DNA of 51,513 bases from a virus, in the IMG/VR virus record IMGVR_UViG_3300047548_000290, positions 1 to 51,513 of that record. The stretch is one strand, 5' to 3'. Position 1 is the first letter of the stretch; the number at the start of each line of letters is the position of its first letter. Positions 43,773-51,346 of this stretch are shown piece by piece. The position numbers and the translations under genes are program-made. The notes beneath the pieces are model-generated. The model had not been told where the DNA came from and did no database searches. It worked only from the letters and a program-made list of their open reading frames with translations.

Positions 43773-44690
43773 TCACATGGCCAACTTTTTGAAAGCGGCC
43801 AATTCTTCATCATCTTCTTCATCAGTATCAAATGGTGCGGTTTCTTCTGCGGCTGTCTTCGGCTTATTGAAGACAGGCTTCTCAGAAGCCATTGGCTTAG
43901 GCTCAGAACGTGGTGCGGAGAAATCACCGCTTACACCAAGAACCTCATCCAACTTCTTCTTGAGTTCTTCATAAGACTTGAAGTTCTTCGGATCAACAAA
44001 CTCCTTGAGTGAGTATTGCTTCTTCCAAATCTTTTCGAGTTCTTCGTCATCGTCATTCAGAGCAGCCGAACCTTCAAAGATTGACTGATCATAATTTGGA
44101 TAACCATCGACAGTGCGAATACGGAGCTTGAAGTTAGCACCCTTCCAGAAATCAAATGGATTTACTGGCTTGTCGCCTTCAAATTCAGGATTCATAAGCA
44201 TGGTGATCTTGTCGAAAATCTTCTTACCATACTTAAACAGAAAGACTTTGCCTTCATTATCAGGATTCTTGGGATCAGAAATCACAAGAATGTTTGAGAT
44301 GTAATGAAGACGGCGCTTTTGATCACGAGCCTGCTTACGCTGCCATGATGCATCGTCGCTGGATTCATTCCAAAGTTTGCTGTTGTATTCTGAGACCGGA
44401 TCTTTTTGATTGAGAGTGGTCAGCGAGTTTTCGATATACCACTTGCCGGTCGGACCCTTGAAGCCATGATCAAAGATACGCACCCAAGGCAGAGCATCGT
44501 CGCCATCAACCGCTGGCGGCGGAAGAAAACGGATGATTGCAGCGCCGTTGCCGGACTTATCACGCTCTAGTTTCCAGAAACGATCATCACCCTTCTTTTC
44601 AGAAGTGGCTGGTGCATTGACCTTTTCAATTTCTTTGGCTAGACGTTCGAGGGTGTTTGAGGACTTCTTGAGGGATGAAAAACTTGACAT
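43773..44690 (-). CDS. 32: Single-stranded DNA-binding protein gp32
   Basis: 305 residues from the ATG at 44690 (MSSFSSLKKSSN), with a good SD (AAAGGAG). Motifs include DRFWKLERDKSGNGAAIIRFLPPP near residue 36, FDHGFKGPTGKWYIENSLTTLNQKDPVSEYNSKLW near 67-100, HYISNILVISDPKNPDNEGKVFLFKYGKKIFDKI near 125-158, and the FKSYEELKKKLDEVLG helix before an acidic tail. Compared with T4 gp32, the zinc-binding Cys residues are absent (T4 has ETCSSTHGDYDSCPVC). A strong host-type promoter lies upstream. The zinc-free form is probably shared with other T4-like phages of non-enteric bacteria. Binds ssDNA in replication. Confidence 0.93.
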   Translation of the reverse strand: MSSFSSLKKSSNTLERLAKEIEKVNAPATSEKKGDDRFWKLERDKSGNGAAIIRFLPPPAVDGDDALPWVRIFDHGFKGPTGKWYIENSLTTLNQKDPVSEYNSKLWNESSDDASWQRKQARDQKRRLHYISNILVISDPKNPDNEGKVFLFKYGKKIFDKITMLMNPEFEGDKPVNPFDFWKGANFKLRIRTVDGYPNYDQSIFEGSAALNDDDEELEKIWKKQYSLKEFVDPKNFKSYEELKKKLDEVLGVSGDFSAPRSEPKPMASEKPVFNKPKTAAEETAPFDTDEEDDEELAAFKKLAM

Positions 44691-44736
44691 TGTATGCTCC
44701 TTTGTATAAGCGTTGTGTAAGCGAAGTATATTTTGT

Positions 44737-44765
44737 ATAGTAACACACCAATCTCGGTATGTCAA
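44737..44765 (-). promoter_or_regulatory. Host sigma70-type promoter for gp32
   Basis: On the minus strand, TTGACA (44765-44760), a 17-nt spacer and TACTAT (44742-44737). Spacing and boxes are near consensus. Expected start about 40 nt upstream of the gp32 ATG. Confidence 0.75.
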
Positions 44766-44789: not shown

Positions 44790-45137
44790 TCACCTACGAT
44801 AACCATCATGGTTATAAGTTGGGTCTGTGCCGCCATTAGCACCTTTTGCATCAACTACACCAACAGAGCCAACCGCACCGACTCCACCAGTAGCACCAAC
44901 ACAGTTCATGGCATGAGAAGTCACGCGATGAAATGATGGGCAACCATCATTGTAGCAGACATAACCAAATGCTTTTCCGTTAAAGTCTATTCCACATTTA
45001 GAACAGACATTGTTGATAGGCGATGTATTAACCTTCACTGGCTGTCTACCGTCTCTCAAACCTTTTTCATAGCCAGCATCAAAGCCGTCTTTGAAACCTT
45101 CTTTATACATATTCTTCATTGCATCTTCATTCACCAT
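44790..45137 (-). CDS. Zinc-binding small protein with a glycine-rich tail
   Basis: 115 residues: MVNEDAMKNMYKEGFKDGFDAGYEKGLRDGRQPVKVNTSPINN is repetitive and charged, with GFxDGFxxGYxxGLRDG tandem helices. It is followed by CSKCGIDFNGKAFGYVCYNDGCP (four Cys, likely one zinc) and a low-complexity GATGGVGAVGSVGVVDAKGANGG tail. It is found between gp59 and gp32 and is tightly overlapped with gp59. Function unknown. The FxDGFxxGYxxG repeats also occur at the starts of other phage zinc-ribbon proteins. Confidence 0.65.
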   Translation of the reverse strand: MVNEDAMKNMYKEGFKDGFDAGYEKGLRDGRQPVKVNTSPINNVCSKCGIDFNGKAFGYVCYNDGCPSFHRVTSHAMNCVGATGGVGAVGSVGVVDAKGANGGTDPTYNHDGYRR

Positions 45138-45735
45138 CAGAATACTCCTTGATCTTTTCTTTCAATATCTGCAATACCTTTTTCTTATCATACTCTAAGA
45201 AAGGATAGAGTTTGACAACTACATTGCGATACTTAGTCCAGATATAATCATCATCTAGCTTCTCATCAAAGACCTTAGAGAAACCGATGAAGCGGTCCAG
45301 AATGGCAAATGTTTCAGGCGAGATTGTGCCATTCATCAGACAGTTCAGAACAGGTGGTATCTGACCGTCTTTTATCTTGAAAGCACACTCCGGCGAATAC
45401 TCGCCAAATAATTTATCTAGTTCATTTGCAAATACATAAGAAAAGGCTTGCTTACGCTTTGCATAGGCTAGATAAATGTCATGTGCATCATCTTCTAAAA
45501 AATCACCAACCCAACTCTTGCCTGCCATCAGATTAGCAATGAGAAAGTCTTTCATCTGATTTGCATCGACCTTGCGCGACAACTTCTGAAATTGAAAGCG
45601 GTCACGCCGAGCCATGAAACTATCAGGCGATGCATTGGTCTTACCATGATACTTGAAGTAATCATAGCTAGGTTGCGTGAAGTGGTTCTTCAACGCCAAG
45701 AAAAGACTGTATGTGTCAAATGATGACATTCTCAT
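45127..45735 (-). CDS. 59: DNA helicase loader gp59-like
   Basis: 202 residues from the ATG overlapping the previous stop (ATGA). The pattern MARRDRFQFQKLSRKVDANQMKDFLIANLMAGKSWVGDFLEDDAHDIYLAYAKRKQ (broken here across about residues 42-97) matches T4 gp59 (KRRDKYFFQKLSEKYKLKELALIFISNLVANQDAWIGDISDADALVFYREYIGRLKQ). The C-terminal half has the FETFAIL-like GTISPETFAILDRFIGF and WTKYRNVVVKLYPFL. Gp59 loads the helicase onto gp32-covered DNA. It lies next to gp32 as in T4. Confidence 0.88.
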   Translation of the reverse strand: MRMSSFDTYSLFLALKNHFTQPSYDYFKYHGKTNASPDSFMARRDRFQFQKLSRKVDANQMKDFLIANLMAGKSWVGDFLEDDAHDIYLAYAKRKQAFSYVFANELDKLFGEYSPECAFKIKDGQIPPVLNCLMNGTISPETFAILDRFIGFSKVFDEKLDDDYIWTKYRNVVVKLYPFLEYDKKKVLQILKEKIKEYSDGE

Positions 45736-46946: not shown

Positions 46947-47198
46947 TTATCCGTTAGAAACGAAGTCGTTCAGTTTTCTTGCTTCTGCAATTACTTCCTC
47001 GGTAGATACCGTAGGCATATCAGGAAAGGTTGGAAGTTTGAAAAATTCGCCAGATGCGGCTTTCATACTCCATTCTTCGCGCTTCATATTCCAATCGTTC
47101 TCCAATTGCTGGCGAACGGCAAAGTTCTTATCGTTACAAATACCTTGAGCAAGATGCAAAAGGCTGGCGCGAAGTTCATAAGGGGTTTTGTTTGACAT
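46947..47198 (-). CDS. Conserved small phage protein, function unknown
   Basis: 83 residues: NKTPYELRASLLHLAQGICNDKNFAVRQQLENDWNMKREEW ... FPDMPTVSTEEVIAEARKLNDFVSNG. The TPYELRxxLLxLA start and the P-x-V-S-T-E-E-V-I-A-x-A-x-x-L-N-x-F-V-S end match a small family common in T4-like phages, without known function. A good SD (AGGAG) lies before the ATG. It lies directly downstream of the tmRNA gene and could be on the same primary transcript. Confidence 0.75.
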   Translation of the reverse strand: MSNKTPYELRASLLHLAQGICNDKNFAVRQQLENDWNMKREEWSMKAASGEFFKLPTFPDMPTVSTEEVIAEARKLNDFVSNG

Positions 47199-47216: not shown

Positions 47217-47545
47217 TGTGTCAAAGTGGGCCCGTTCTGTTTCGAGGTGGAACCCATACCCAAGAGGTTACGCGGCTAAGCGAGCCTCAACAACGAAGTT
47301 ATCGTTGGCATTTATGGTTTTTGCTTTTGGTCTCGGTACAGTCTTTACTACGCCTGTCGATCCTATTTCGCCCCCAGCAAAGACACTCCACAGCAGCGTT
47401 TCGAACCGCTACCTGACCCGCGGAAGGTGTTCCGGAAAGACTCCGCATTTATGTATTAAGTGGCGAAGTGTCTATGGTGGAGGCGGCGGGTACTGCCCCC
47501 GCGTCCAGTTCGTCTATTGCACTTAACGTCAACGACCTCAGCATG
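47217..47545 (-). ncRNA. ssrA: Circularly permuted (two-piece) tmRNA
   Basis: Transcript order on the minus strand: acceptor piece (about 47545 to 47475), intervening segment (47474-47376), coding piece (47375 to about 47217). The acceptor piece ends CGCCTCCACCA. The coding piece starts GGGGGCG, and the two form a 7-bp acceptor stem with one G-U. The T stem GCGGG/CCCGC is present, with an unusual loop GGCAGTA. The coding piece opens GGATCGACAGG-like and carries the tag reading frame at 47309-47268: ANDNFVVEARLAA then TAA. Alphaproteobacteria have this permuted form and ANDN-type tags. The intervening segment has complementary ends (AGACACT with AGTGTCT). Ends of both pieces are approximate. 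The RNA rescues stalled ribosomes. Confidence 0.9.
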
Positions 47546-47549
47546 GTAT

Positions 47550-47578
47550 ATATTATATCAAATCTCTCTGGAAGTCAA
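47550..47578 (-). promoter_or_regulatory. Sigma70-type promoter of the tmRNA gene
   Basis: On the minus strand TTGACT (47578-47573), a 17-nt spacer and TAATAT (47555-47550). A TATAAT frame overlaps with 15-nt spacing. The boxes overlap the 3' end of the preceding small membrane protein gene. Expected start near 47545, the beginning of the acceptor piece. Confidence 0.65.
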
Positions 47579-47755
47579 GCGTTTATTTTTTTCATAAGGT
47601 ACAATCTTATCACCTTTGAGAGCGATAATTTTCTGATCAAGAAGGCTGCCGAGTGTTGCTTCGATACCTAACTTTACACCTTGCTTATGATTCCACCAAG
47701 CACAGAAACCAAAGAGTAGAGCAAGCCCAATGGCTCCATAAAGGTCAATATACAT
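47558..47755 (-). CDS. Small single-pass membrane protein
   Basis: 65 residues from the ATG at 47755 (MYIDLYGAIGLALLFGFCAWW), chosen for the AAGGAA upstream. A longer start inside the exonuclease gene is possible. One membrane segment (about 7-24), then a charged tail KQGVKLGIEATLGSLLDQKIIALKGDKIVPYEKNKRL. No known domain. It overlaps the exonuclease gene by 11 nt, and its 3' end overlaps the tmRNA promoter. Confidence 0.65.
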   Translation of the reverse strand: MYIDLYGAIGLALLFGFCAWWNHKQGVKLGIEATLGSLLDQKIIALKGDKIVPYEKNKRLTSREI

Positions 47756-48431
47756 TTGAATGTTCCTTTTTATAGTTCTCGATTTTTTCGATGAGGGAAT
47801 CAACGTAGTCGATACGGTTCTTCACAAAGATTTGCGGCTTCTCCATGCCATCAACAGATATGATGATTACAATTTGATTGACACTTCGACCTGTCATCTC
47901 CTCATACATGAGAGAATATGCTGTGCCTTGCTCAAAGTAATTCTGGATCCATTCTTCTTTCTTCTCTTTCGTAGAAGTCTTGAAATCGATGATTGAGGGC
48001 ACTCCGGCATATTCTGCGATAACGTCAGTTCTGCCTGCGACACCTAATACCTCTGAGTAAAGCGGGCTTTCAATATAATGTATATTGTCGATCAAGTCAA
48101 TAGTTGATTGAATGTCCTTGAAGGCTTGTTTCATATCAGGCATAACATCTTCAAAGATCAGTTTTGCTTCCTCATTGCACAAATACTTTTCGAGCATATT
48201 GTGAAACTTGGTACCACGAATAGAGGCGCGAGTGGAGATTTTATTGGCTTCTTCCTGACCAACACGCTTACGCCACTCAAAGATCATTTGTTTCTTTGAA
48301 TGACCAAGAACGGTTGTAACTGAGGGAAGTTTTTTGCCTGTTGGAGTAATGTAGAACCTCTGACCATCAATTTCTTCGGTGGGCAGAGGTTCTAACTTAG
48401 GCCTGTTGCTAAGGTATCGAAATGTTTTCAT
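47745..48431 (-). CDS. PD-(D/E)XK exonuclease, MGME1/Cas4-like
   Basis: 228 residues. Motifs of the RecB-like exonuclease family: RGTKFHNMLEKYL with His77, GVAGRTDVIAEYAGVPSIIDFKTSTK with Asp136, Asp149 and Lys151, and a following QGTAYSLMYEEMTGR helix (Gln-x-x-x-Tyr). The opening PSVTTVLGHSKKQMIFEWRKRVGQEEA is typical of the mitochondrial MGME1-type group. Such proteins in T4-like phages are predicted to cut single-stranded DNA in replication or recombination. It starts with a 4-nt overlap with the preceding 61-residue gene. Confidence 0.85.
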   Translation of the reverse strand: MKTFRYLSNRPKLEPLPTEEIDGQRFYITPTGKKLPSVTTVLGHSKKQMIFEWRKRVGQEEANKISTRASIRGTKFHNMLEKYLCNEEAKLIFEDVMPDMKQAFKDIQSTIDLIDNIHYIESPLYSEVLGVAGRTDVIAEYAGVPSIIDFKTSTKEKKEEWIQNYFEQGTAYSLMYEEMTGRSVNQIVIIISVDGMEKPQIFVKNRIDYVDSLIEKIENYKKEHSNVY

Positions 48432-48615: not shown

Positions 48616-49296
48616 TCACTCCTTGAAGGTGAATTTAGGTCTTTGTCCTTCTGGCTTGCTCTTTTTGTATTGAGTTTCACCGTATGGATTGTCCTTATTG
48701 TAAGCAGTCTTACCGTAAGTTACCTTCTCACCTTTTTTCTCTGTGCCTGTGTAGACCGCAGTTCCAGTTCCTTTAGGTGAACGATGAATGAAGGCATCTT
48801 GATCGTGGTGCTGTGAGAGTTCTTTTGCATGTTTCAAGAGTTCCGCAGAGTGTTCTTTGCTTGGGCTCTTGGCATAGACATGCAATGAGTTTTCTTTACC
48901 GACACCGCCGCCTTCATCCCACTTTCCTTCAGTCTTACGAAAGCCGTAGCCTCGCTCACGCCATTGCTTTTTGAGCGTATTCATTCTAGCACGGTTCTCT
49001 TTAGGTGTCAAGTTATGTCTTTCAGCAGACATGATAATTGAATGTTTACCTTCTTCATCCTGCTTTGTCATGCGTGAAAGTGGATTGCCTTCTTCGATGG
49101 TATCTTCCTCAAGGCTGCCGCCTCCACCACCGCCACCACCATCACCACCGCCGTTACCACCATCGCCGCCGCTTCCACCTTTGGAGCTTGCGCGAGTAGG
49201 AACAAGGTGCTTTGCATCGACCTTCTTACGGCCGATGATCATTGGATCTTCTTTTTCTTCTCTAATTTGTTTGAGGAGTTCTGATAGTGTTTTCAT
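48616..49296 (-). CDS. Protein with a Gly-rich linker and a DUF3293-like region
   Basis: 226 residues. The start MKTLSELLKQIREEKEDPMIIGRKKVDAKHLVPTRASSK is followed by a Gly/Asp linker at about 40-62 (GGSGGDGGNGGGDGGGGGGGG). The region SAERHNLTPKENRARMNTLKKQWRERGYGFRKTEGKWDEGGGVGKENSLHVYA (about 90-143) fits a DUF3293-type pattern (S-A-x-R ... ENxxRxxxLxxxLxxxGYxxxxxxGxW). The end is basic and disordered. The start overlaps the end of the cytidylyltransferase-like gene by 35 nt. Function unknown. Confidence 0.6.
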   Translation of the reverse strand: MKTLSELLKQIREEKEDPMIIGRKKVDAKHLVPTRASSKGGSGGDGGNGGGDGGGGGGGGSLEEDTIEEGNPLSRMTKQDEEGKHSIIMSAERHNLTPKENRARMNTLKKQWRERGYGFRKTEGKWDEGGGVGKENSLHVYAKSPSKEHSAELLKHAKELSQHHDQDAFIHRSPKGTGTAVYTGTEKKGEKVTYGKTAYNKDNPYGETQYKKSKPEGQRPKFTFKE

Positions 49297-50520: not shown

Positions 50521-51090
50521 TTAAACTTTCTCAATTCTATATTTTTTATGTTGCTTTCTTAATCCGTTTGCAACTCTCCACATAGAATGATAGTCTAGAT
50601 TATTTTTTAAACAAAAATCTTTTAGACAAAAAACATTATGTTTTAAACCTTGATTATCTATGATTATATAACTTTTAGCACCATTCAGACGACATTTTTC
50701 AGAATGTTCATCACTTTTCTTTTTATCTTTTAAAGATTGTGATAAACTTTTTCGCCACTTTTCATCTTTAATTTTACCTTTATGGCTAAGGCTCATTTTT
50801 CTTTTTGTTTGAGTTGAATGTTTACCACTAAAACCTTCACCACCATCAGTCATATTTCTTAATATACCAGTTTCATTATCTATTCTTCCATACCATCGAA
50901 TATAAAACCTTTCTAAAGCACATGCGCCTATATTACTGAGATTTTGTTCCATTATGATAATGCGAGACTTGTCAGCAGGTATTGGCCAAGAATGATTTTT
51001 ATCCCATGCTCTTTTTTTACGACCTTTTCCAATATAATAAGGAGTGCCGTCTTTTCTCAAATAGGCATATATGTAATATTCAAACTTCAC
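50521..51090 (-). CDS. GIY-YIG homing endonuclease (phoH-adjacent)
   Basis: 189 residues from the GTG at 51090 (VKFEYYIYAYLRKDGTPYYIGKG). The GIY-YIG core is complete: YYIYAYLRKDGTPYYIGKG, then KRAWDKNH, LERFYIRWYGR with conserved Glu, and ILRNMTDGGEGFSGKHSTQTKRKMS. A NUMOD3-type helix is followed by a C-terminal part (SYIIIDNQGLKHNVFCLKDFCLKNNLDYHSMWRVANGLRKQHKKYRIEKV) that may read DNA. The GTG start overlaps the end of the 88-residue gene by 11 nt, so the endonuclease seems inserted at that gene's end. It is of a different subfamily from the other two endonucleases here. Confidence 0.88.
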   Translation of the reverse strand: MKFEYYIYAYLRKDGTPYYIGKGRKKRAWDKNHSWPIPADKSRIIIMEQNLSNIGACALERFYIRWYGRIDNETGILRNMTDGGEGFSGKHSTQTKRKMSLSHKGKIKDEKWRKSLSQSLKDKKKSDEHSEKCRLNGAKSYIIIDNQGLKHNVFCLKDFCLKNNLDYHSMWRVANGLRKQHKKYRIEKV

Positions 51091-51346
51091 GCGGTATCGT
51101 CCAACGCTTTTCAAGCGCCGGAGTATGTGCTCCTGGCGCAGTCTCTTTAACCTTACCAACAACATATTTTGTAAAATCGGAAGGCGGTTTGGTAATACCA
51201 ATACCAACAGGATCAACAATATTCATGCGAAATACTTGATTTAAGTGAGGATTATCTTTTAGATATTGATCTAGTTCATTATAAGACATGGTAAGATCGT
51301 ATTCTTCCCCTGTATTAGTATTTTCAAAAGTATAAACTGGACACAT
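51080..51346 (-). CDS. Small conserved phage protein (FmdB-like start, no zinc ribbon)
   Basis: 88 residues: MCPVYTFENTNTGEEYDLTMSYNELDQYLKDNPHLNQVFRMNIVDPVGIGITKPPSDFTKYVVGKVKETAPGAHTPALEKRWTIPREV (broken here). The start PxYxFENxxTGEE and LxDNPHLxQVFxxNIxDPV are conserved in T4-like phages. It resembles regulators of the FmdB type but the zinc Cys pairs are missing. A perfect late promoter lies 18 nt upstream. Its end overlaps a homing endonuclease gene, which may have altered its C-terminus. Confidence 0.7.
   Translation of the reverse strand: MCPVYTFENTNTGEEYDLTMSYNELDQYLKDNPHLNQVFRMNIVDPVGIGITKPPSDFTKYVVGKVKETAPGAHTPALEKRWTIPREV

Follow-up and report, generated by a model that had tools for sequence, protein, structure and literature searches.

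A conserved structured RNA element between the two halves of a permuted tmRNA gene in a T4-like phage

Introduction

Permuted tmRNA genes carry an intervening sequence between the CCA end of the acceptor piece and the coding piece, which is missing from the mature RNA (PMC11915505). Reports of cargo in this spacer have been single cases, one spacer holding a tRNA-Ala gene and another a repetitive element (PMC11915505). Here we ask what lies between the two halves of such a gene in a linear 51,513-bp IMG/VR virus record (the whole of this stretch is 'the window' below), and whether the gene looks like a working one. Phage permuted tmRNAs are already known; what is new here is the element in the spacer.

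Results and discussion

The tmRNA gene and its anatomy

The initial annotation proposed a circularly permuted tmRNA of the alphaproteobacterial type at this locus, and the Rfam covariance models bear this out over their full length: minus-strand positions 47225-47582 match RF01849 (alpha_tmRNA; 127.1 bits, E 2.2e-34, model positions 1-355), and RF04321 (tmRNA_permuted) gives a full-length match on the same strand (113.8 bits, E 1.5e-21). Both scores exceed the gathering thresholds (50 bits for RF01849, 47 bits for RF04321) and are far beyond chance, and all modelled segments are covered. An ARAGORN scan of the window missed the gene and reported nothing. The features of the gene are as follows.

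47550..47578, minus strand: sigma-70-like promoter match TTGACT-17-TAATAT directly upstream of the acceptor piece (weak; three such matches in the region vs 1.4 in shuffles)
47475..47537, minus strand: tmRNA acceptor piece, from the RF04321 and RF01849 alignments and the sequence; the 5' end at 47537 is approximate, being the Rfam model start
47376..47474, minus strand: intervening segment of 99 nt, almost entirely a conserved RNA element (element covariance model R1, 47380-47474, 98.1 bits, E 1.5e-22)
47225..47375, minus strand: tmRNA coding piece, starting GGGGGCG at 47375, from the RF01849 match, which also supplies the approximate 3' end at 47225
47268..47309, minus strand: tag reading frame ANDNFVVEARLAA-stop, read from the sequence

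The gene thus runs in the order acceptor piece, intervening segment, coding piece. The acceptor piece forms the 3' half of the tRNA-like domain, with a T arm of GCGGG-GGCAGTA-CCCGC, the acceptor strand CGCCTCC and an encoded ACCA whose final A, that of the CCA, is at 47475. The acceptor stem has 7 bp including one G-U pair, G3-U70, a pair that is an established identity element for alanyl-tRNA synthetase. The tag codons (GCC AAC GAT AAC TTC GTT GTT GAG GCT CGC TTA GCC GCG TAA, 47309-47268) follow the same ANDN...LAA pattern as those of relatives, and resume codon, frame, stop and degradation-type C terminus are all present. In a search of genome contigs no genome had the exact tag; tags ending EARLAA were mostly from Rhizobiales among the matches listed, and phage tags vary widely. 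Both pieces, the 7-bp stem and the tag lie exactly where the initial annotation had placed them; its anatomy was correct, but the structured 99-nt insert between the pieces had escaped it.

Genomic setting and published relatives

The tmRNA gene sits in a same-strand series that runs, in order, PhoH, a cytidylyltransferase-like protein, a putative S-adenosylmethionine lyase, a PD-(D/E)XK exonuclease, a small membrane-type ORF and the tmRNA, followed by two small ORFs, a nucleotidyltransferase-like protein, a gp59-type helicase loader and gp32. Elsewhere in the window there are head and tail genes of T4-like type, and the earlier placement of the locus in a T4-like replication region is supported.

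47745..48431, minus strand: PD-(D/E)XK exonuclease gene, upstream of the tmRNA (phrog_298, E 3e-68; PF12705)
46947..47198, minus strand: ORF of 83 aa downstream of the tmRNA, without a match in family searches
45127..45735, minus strand: gp59-like DNA helicase loader (phrog_269, E 1e-56)
43773..44765, minus strand: gp32-like single-strand DNA-binding protein (phrog_224, E 1.5e-110)

The 83-aa ORF was considered as the late-transcription coactivator gp33, which is the gene directly downstream of the tmRNA in phages Melnitz and Mosig, but this found no support: BLASTP against gp33 of Melnitz, Mosig and P-HM1 aligned only 11 residues (E 0.04). Two further minus-strand genes in this part of the window deserve mention in their own right. 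The putative S-adenosylmethionine lyase (48616-49296; PF23780, E 2.5e-8, passing the cut-off) is possibly an anti-restriction protein, and an ORF adjoining phoH (50521-51219) is homing-endonuclease-like by weak matches to PHROG 314 and NUMOD3.

The initial annotation held a tmRNA at such a locus to be unusual and perhaps undescribed, a view that the literature does not support. Pelagibacter phage Mosig and the OM43 (Methylophilales) phage Melnitz, published in 2022, have a tmRNA at the matching position, and the Melnitz paper put the number of suggested two-piece tmRNAs in phage genomes at 53, of which 50 came from marine or aquatic samples (PMC9004378). The tmRNA is annotated in both records, and both share with the window the gene order exonuclease, small ORF, tmRNA, gp59, gp32. 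All three genes are alpha-type permuted tmRNAs between the PD-(D/E)XK nuclease plus small ORF and gp59/gp32, with CCACCA, a GGGGGYG-type start and a helix-closed intervening segment. They differ in what that segment holds: the CCACUUAAUACAUA element of the window is absent from Mosig and Melnitz, the Mosig segment is only ~45 nt against 99 nt in the window, and the Melnitz segment of ~142 nt contains an open frame starting after a ribosome-binding site. Melnitz also has a glutamine riboswitch downstream, whereas the window has none.

Several other isolated phages carry permuted tmRNA genes without a tmRNA annotation, among them Mesorhizobium phage Cp1R7A-A1 (L344), Erythrobacter phage vB_EliS-L02 (L123) and Rhodobacter phage RcRudolph (L345), where the region is annotated as a hypothetical protein. 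The unannotated gene of Sinorhizobium phage Phosso (L122/L281) has a 410-nt intervening segment, and the last part of its coding piece includes a 60-nt stretch with 93% identity to the window tmRNA.

Conservation of the tmRNA among related phages

Among 46 IMG/VR records picked for holding a relative of the window's exonuclease, 38 contain a permuted tmRNA over threshold; of the eight that do not, two end within 360 nt of the exonuclease and the other six are without a tmRNA in the available sequence. Where members could be parsed, the acceptor CCA is on the exonuclease strand, typically ~300 nt past the exonuclease gene. The acceptor stems vary on both strands (CGCCTCC/GGGGGCG, CCACTCC/GGGGTGG, CGGGTCC/GGGCCCG, CCAGTCC/GGGCTGG, CTGGTCC/GGGCCAG, CGTCTCC/GGGGACG and others), G3-U70 is kept in all 137 parsed viral tmRNAs, and the tags vary yet begin ANDN, with an LAA ending in 108 of 124 parsed viral tags. 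The acceptor stem is therefore conserved in related phages through compensating changes, as are the tag frame and the position of the gene, and the window tmRNA looks functional and belongs to a kind of phage gene already known. It thus withstands the refutation tests that the initial annotation had set, a covariance-model hit and conservation of tag frame and stem. SmpB was not found in the T4-like relatives searched, so that host SmpB must serve. Two large viral contigs of 369 and 385 kb (L223, record G057, 261280-262043; and L271, record G064) do encode both a permuted tmRNA and SmpB, the two genes being ~143 nt apart in G057.

A structured RNA element in the intervening segment

The 99-nt intervening segment is not expected to form part of the mature RNA, and it departs from what RF01849 and RF04321 describe: the window matches all their modelled segments, but this segment holds a conserved element. 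Phage intervening segments have a median length of ~87 nt, as against 34 nt in the sampled Rhizobiales, where the hairpins are also shorter. A closing helix of ~10 bp is near-universal in those of phages and is present in 22 of 22 in the window's clade, compared with ~7% of shuffles. The element comprises a closing helix, a core of CCACUUAAUACAUAnAUGCGGA…UUCCGCGGGUYA, a palindromic loop and a third hairpin, placed as follows in the window.

47464..47473, minus strand: helix P1, 5' strand AGACACTTCG (P1 covariation)
47442..47463, minus strand: conserved core A CCACTTAATACATAAATGCGGA, of which the last 5 nt are the P2 5' strand (pattern searches and comparison of copies)
47430..47437, minus strand: 8-nt palindrome TTCCGGAA in the P2 apical loop (palindrome statistics)
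47414..47425, minus strand: conserved core B TTCCGCGGGTCA, in which TCCGC (47424-47420) is the P2 3' strand (comparison of copies, RNAalifold)
47393..47412, minus strand: hairpin P3, GTAGCG-GTTCGAAA-CGCTGC
47381..47390, minus strand: helix P1, 3' strand TGGAGTGTCT (P1 covariation)

Across 22 distinct copies both-sided changes occur at 9 of the 10 P1 pairs, and pairing holds in 97.6% of cells in P1 and P2. The covariation score of 0.553 compares with 0.195 (sd 0.021) in shuffled alignments, none of 500 shuffles reaches it, and it collapses when the pairing is slid by one column. RNAalifold independently extends P2 by two further covarying pairs (GC/CG and UA/AU/CG). Compensatory changes in the helices thus go beyond those of shuffles, which marks the insert as a conserved structured RNA. 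P3 is a variable hairpin, and its pairing is weaker evidence because its pairs were picked for each sequence. Some 35 core bases are near-invariant while the helices vary freely, and P1 reaches 16-22 bp in several tRNA-flanked copies. In 23 of 26 distinct copies the P2 apical loop includes a palindrome 6 nt or more in length, where 4.8 are expected and the maximum in 500 shuffles is 11; these palindromes differ among copies (CCGG-, TCGA-, CTAG-, CATG- or TGCA-centred), a pattern of sequence change that suggests loop-loop dimerisation.

Familiar identities for the insert were considered and rejected. As a tRNA, with GGTTCGAAAC as its loop, it gives no ARAGORN or Rfam tRNA match in the window, the canonical T arm (5 bp, 7-nt loop) is absent from the window copy, its loop differs from copy to copy, and only 2 of 100 viral intervening segments have T-arm-like hairpins (0.35 expected). 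As a coding frame, the L164 copy is readable as 23 aa; the L468 copy is without an ATG and its pairs have changed compensatorily, so the insert is not coding. As a known riboswitch or ribozyme it has no Rfam match. The two segments with T-arm-like hairpins (L118 and L343) are unrelated to the element, and their hairpins have TTCGAA loops beside the closing helix.

Distribution and placement of the element

The pattern CCACTTAATACATANATNCGGA occurs in 43 IMG/VR contigs, and all 43 have TTCCG[CT]GGGTNA 15-20 nt further on, which the pattern did not demand. Two relaxed patterns that freed other parts of the core returned the same contigs plus one (L510); the core is therefore indeed nearly invariant, with the limit that some anchor was required in every pattern. 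The total, window included, is 45 phage contigs. In 11 of these the element lies inside the intervening segment of a permuted tmRNA, of alpha as well as beta type (the beta-type L500 matches RF01850 at 158.8 bits); in 18 a same-strand tRNA or tmRNA is at most 200 nt away, as in L481, where the element takes up the gap from tRNA-Asp to tRNA-Cys, and in L499, where it stands ~2 nt before tRNA-Arg; the remaining 16 have no tRNA or tmRNA within 200 nt, and there the element is mostly between protein genes. Every nearest tRNA or tmRNA neighbour found within 3 kb shares the strand of the element. Within the 11 tmRNAs placement is strict, as the core starts 11 or 13 nt past the CCA and is followed by 87-90 nt to the start of the coding piece.

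The intervening segments of most permuted phage tmRNAs are different and unrelated to this one; in the first two spacer sets searched, the window spacer was homologous only to those of L164/L165 and L152. The exact core was found in none of 289 alphaproteobacterial genomes, nor in the four first tried, and BLAST of two copies against isolated and cultured phages gave a few short chance matches and no real one; a match in a Pelagibacter podovirus was discarded, the core being absent. Rfam has no family at E<=5 in the window stretch besides the tmRNA models, and none covering the element at E<=1 in 12 contigs that carry it, where the gathering scan returned only tRNA and tmRNA families. In the open-access literature searched (for core strings and for tmRNA intervening segments) the element is not described.

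Two known kinds of phage RNA come closest. Theta ribozymes, which are HDV-like, lie beside phage tRNAs and have been proposed to act on the tRNA 3' trailers of gut phages, are likewise small structured RNAs at tRNA ends (PMC10879173); they differ from the element in both sequence and architecture, and the element matches no Rfam ribozyme. GOLLD RNA (RF02032) is also a phage RNA associated with tRNA/tmRNA clusters, but it is a large RNA, beside phage tRNAs and the tmRNA of phage DSS3_MAL1, with a model of 416 positions against ~95 nt, and the element has no RF02032 match. In DSS3_MAL1 (L343, 2793-3256) GOLLD lies directly upstream of the permuted tmRNA, among tRNAs.

Protein genes in other phage tmRNA spacers

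The same slot holds small protein genes in other phages. Among 46 distinct spacers of at least 110 nt, 16 show a ribosome-binding site with an ORF that is at least 30 codons long and extends to the spacer end, compared with 0.08 in shuffles. Spacers with small ORFs include L032, L043, L048, L070, L112, L019, L017, L018, L044, L030 and L238; the ORFs start after a ribosome-binding site near the spacer start and mostly stop within or near its end, and many encode a membrane segment. One 44-aa membrane-type family has a dN/dS of about 0.13-0.26. The open frame in the Melnitz spacer (L341, 3535-3676) is unannotated. In L163 the 493-nt intervening segment contains an HNH endonuclease-like ORF (144 aa; PF01844, E 8e-5), which suggests homing into the tmRNA intervening segment.

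A model for the gene and its insert

We favour, with a probability of roughly 0.6, a working phage two-piece tmRNA that would be used with host SmpB, the insert being most likely a maturation or stability element of phage stable RNAs. Sequence comparison shows a precursor in which the acceptor piece comes first, then the intervening segment and then the coding piece; the two pieces pair through the conserved acceptor stem with its alanine-type G3-U70, and the tag ends in LAA. Because P1 closes the element and adjoins the acceptor stem, this helix would hold the halves of the precursor together. RNase P would then cut at the 5' end of the coding piece and other nucleases would trim the acceptor piece to the CCA, freeing the insert; the two-piece RNA may be charged with alanine and used with host SmpB on ribosomes stalled during infection, its tagged products presumably being marked for host proteolysis. 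A part for the insert in maturation or stability is likely because the same element occurs between and beside tRNAs and tmRNAs elsewhere.

The distribution also limits this proposal. Since 16 of the 45 contigs have no stable RNA gene close by, maturation may not be the general role of the element, and since most permuted phage tmRNAs have unrelated intervening segments, it is not required for tmRNA processing. For these two reasons the main rival is that the insert is a passenger or regulator, that is, a mobile or exchangeable RNA cassette, or a riboswitch- or terminator-like regulator, for which tRNA/tmRNA gaps are safe landing sites and which has no role for the tmRNA. The non-homologous segments of related tmRNAs imply that contents are exchanged, other phages have ORFs including the HNH endonuclease in the same slot, and several of the copies away from tRNA/tmRNA genes have P1 followed by a T run. 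Against such a passenger stand the matched distances that separate the termini of the element from the CCA and from the start of the coding piece throughout the 11 tmRNAs, its location on the strand of the stable RNAs and a core almost without drift, and we consider this reading distinctly the less probable, at perhaps one chance in four. The near-invariant core exceeds the needs of a spacer or a simple nuclease site and so points to a further specific function; self-cleavage, protein binding and dimerisation are candidates. Of these, a self-cleaving ribozyme that separates the tmRNA pieces, and tRNAs elsewhere, would be analogous to the proposal for theta ribozymes (PMC10879173), and the compact multi-helix architecture, invariant core and strict placement at stable-RNA ends are in its favour. 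We nevertheless think it improbable, as no Rfam ribozyme family is found at E<=1 to 5, no known ribozyme core is recognised, and host enzymes suffice for other permuted tmRNAs.

Other readings concern the tmRNA rather than its insert. It might be a decoy, or a tool that tags host proteins for amino-acid recycling with no productive ribosome rescue, as was put forward as an alternative for Melnitz (PMC9004378); a tmRNA of phage DS6A without a coding sequence inhibits the endogenous tmRNA in E. coli, according to the account cited in PMC11915505. The window gene has no decoy-specific feature. Its tag frame is complete and has the canonical LAA end, the identity element for charging is intact, and many phages keep both; this speaks against a simple decoy, a reading we regard as unlikely, if slightly less so than the ribozyme. 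That the gene is a captured, decaying fragment of a host ssrA, or an attachment-site remnant, we judge barely credible. tmRNA genes are common integration sites; this one is complete and has compensatory changes, no integrase was found among the window proteins examined, and its conservation at the same position in dozens of related phage records refutes a host remnant.

Implications

A phage tmRNA alone is no longer news. Some 35 near-invariant bases with freely varying helices, found at tRNA ends and within tmRNAs across unrelated environmental phages but in no Rfam family, suggest an undescribed activity, for instance cleavage, binding of a protein or ligand, or dimerisation. We tentatively put forward, at somewhat less than even odds, that the insert represents a new class of phage RNA of ~95 nt, built on a two-strand core that does not vary and a P2 loop that is self-complementary and may dimerise, which would control or catalyse maturation during infection at tRNA ends and between tmRNA halves; more broadly, the phage tmRNA intervening segment may be a cargo site, holding either a small protein gene or a structured RNA of this kind. 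Selection on the segment is suggested independently by the small proteins that other phages encode there. If this is true, a part of the two-piece tmRNA that was thought to be discarded would be under strong selection in phages.
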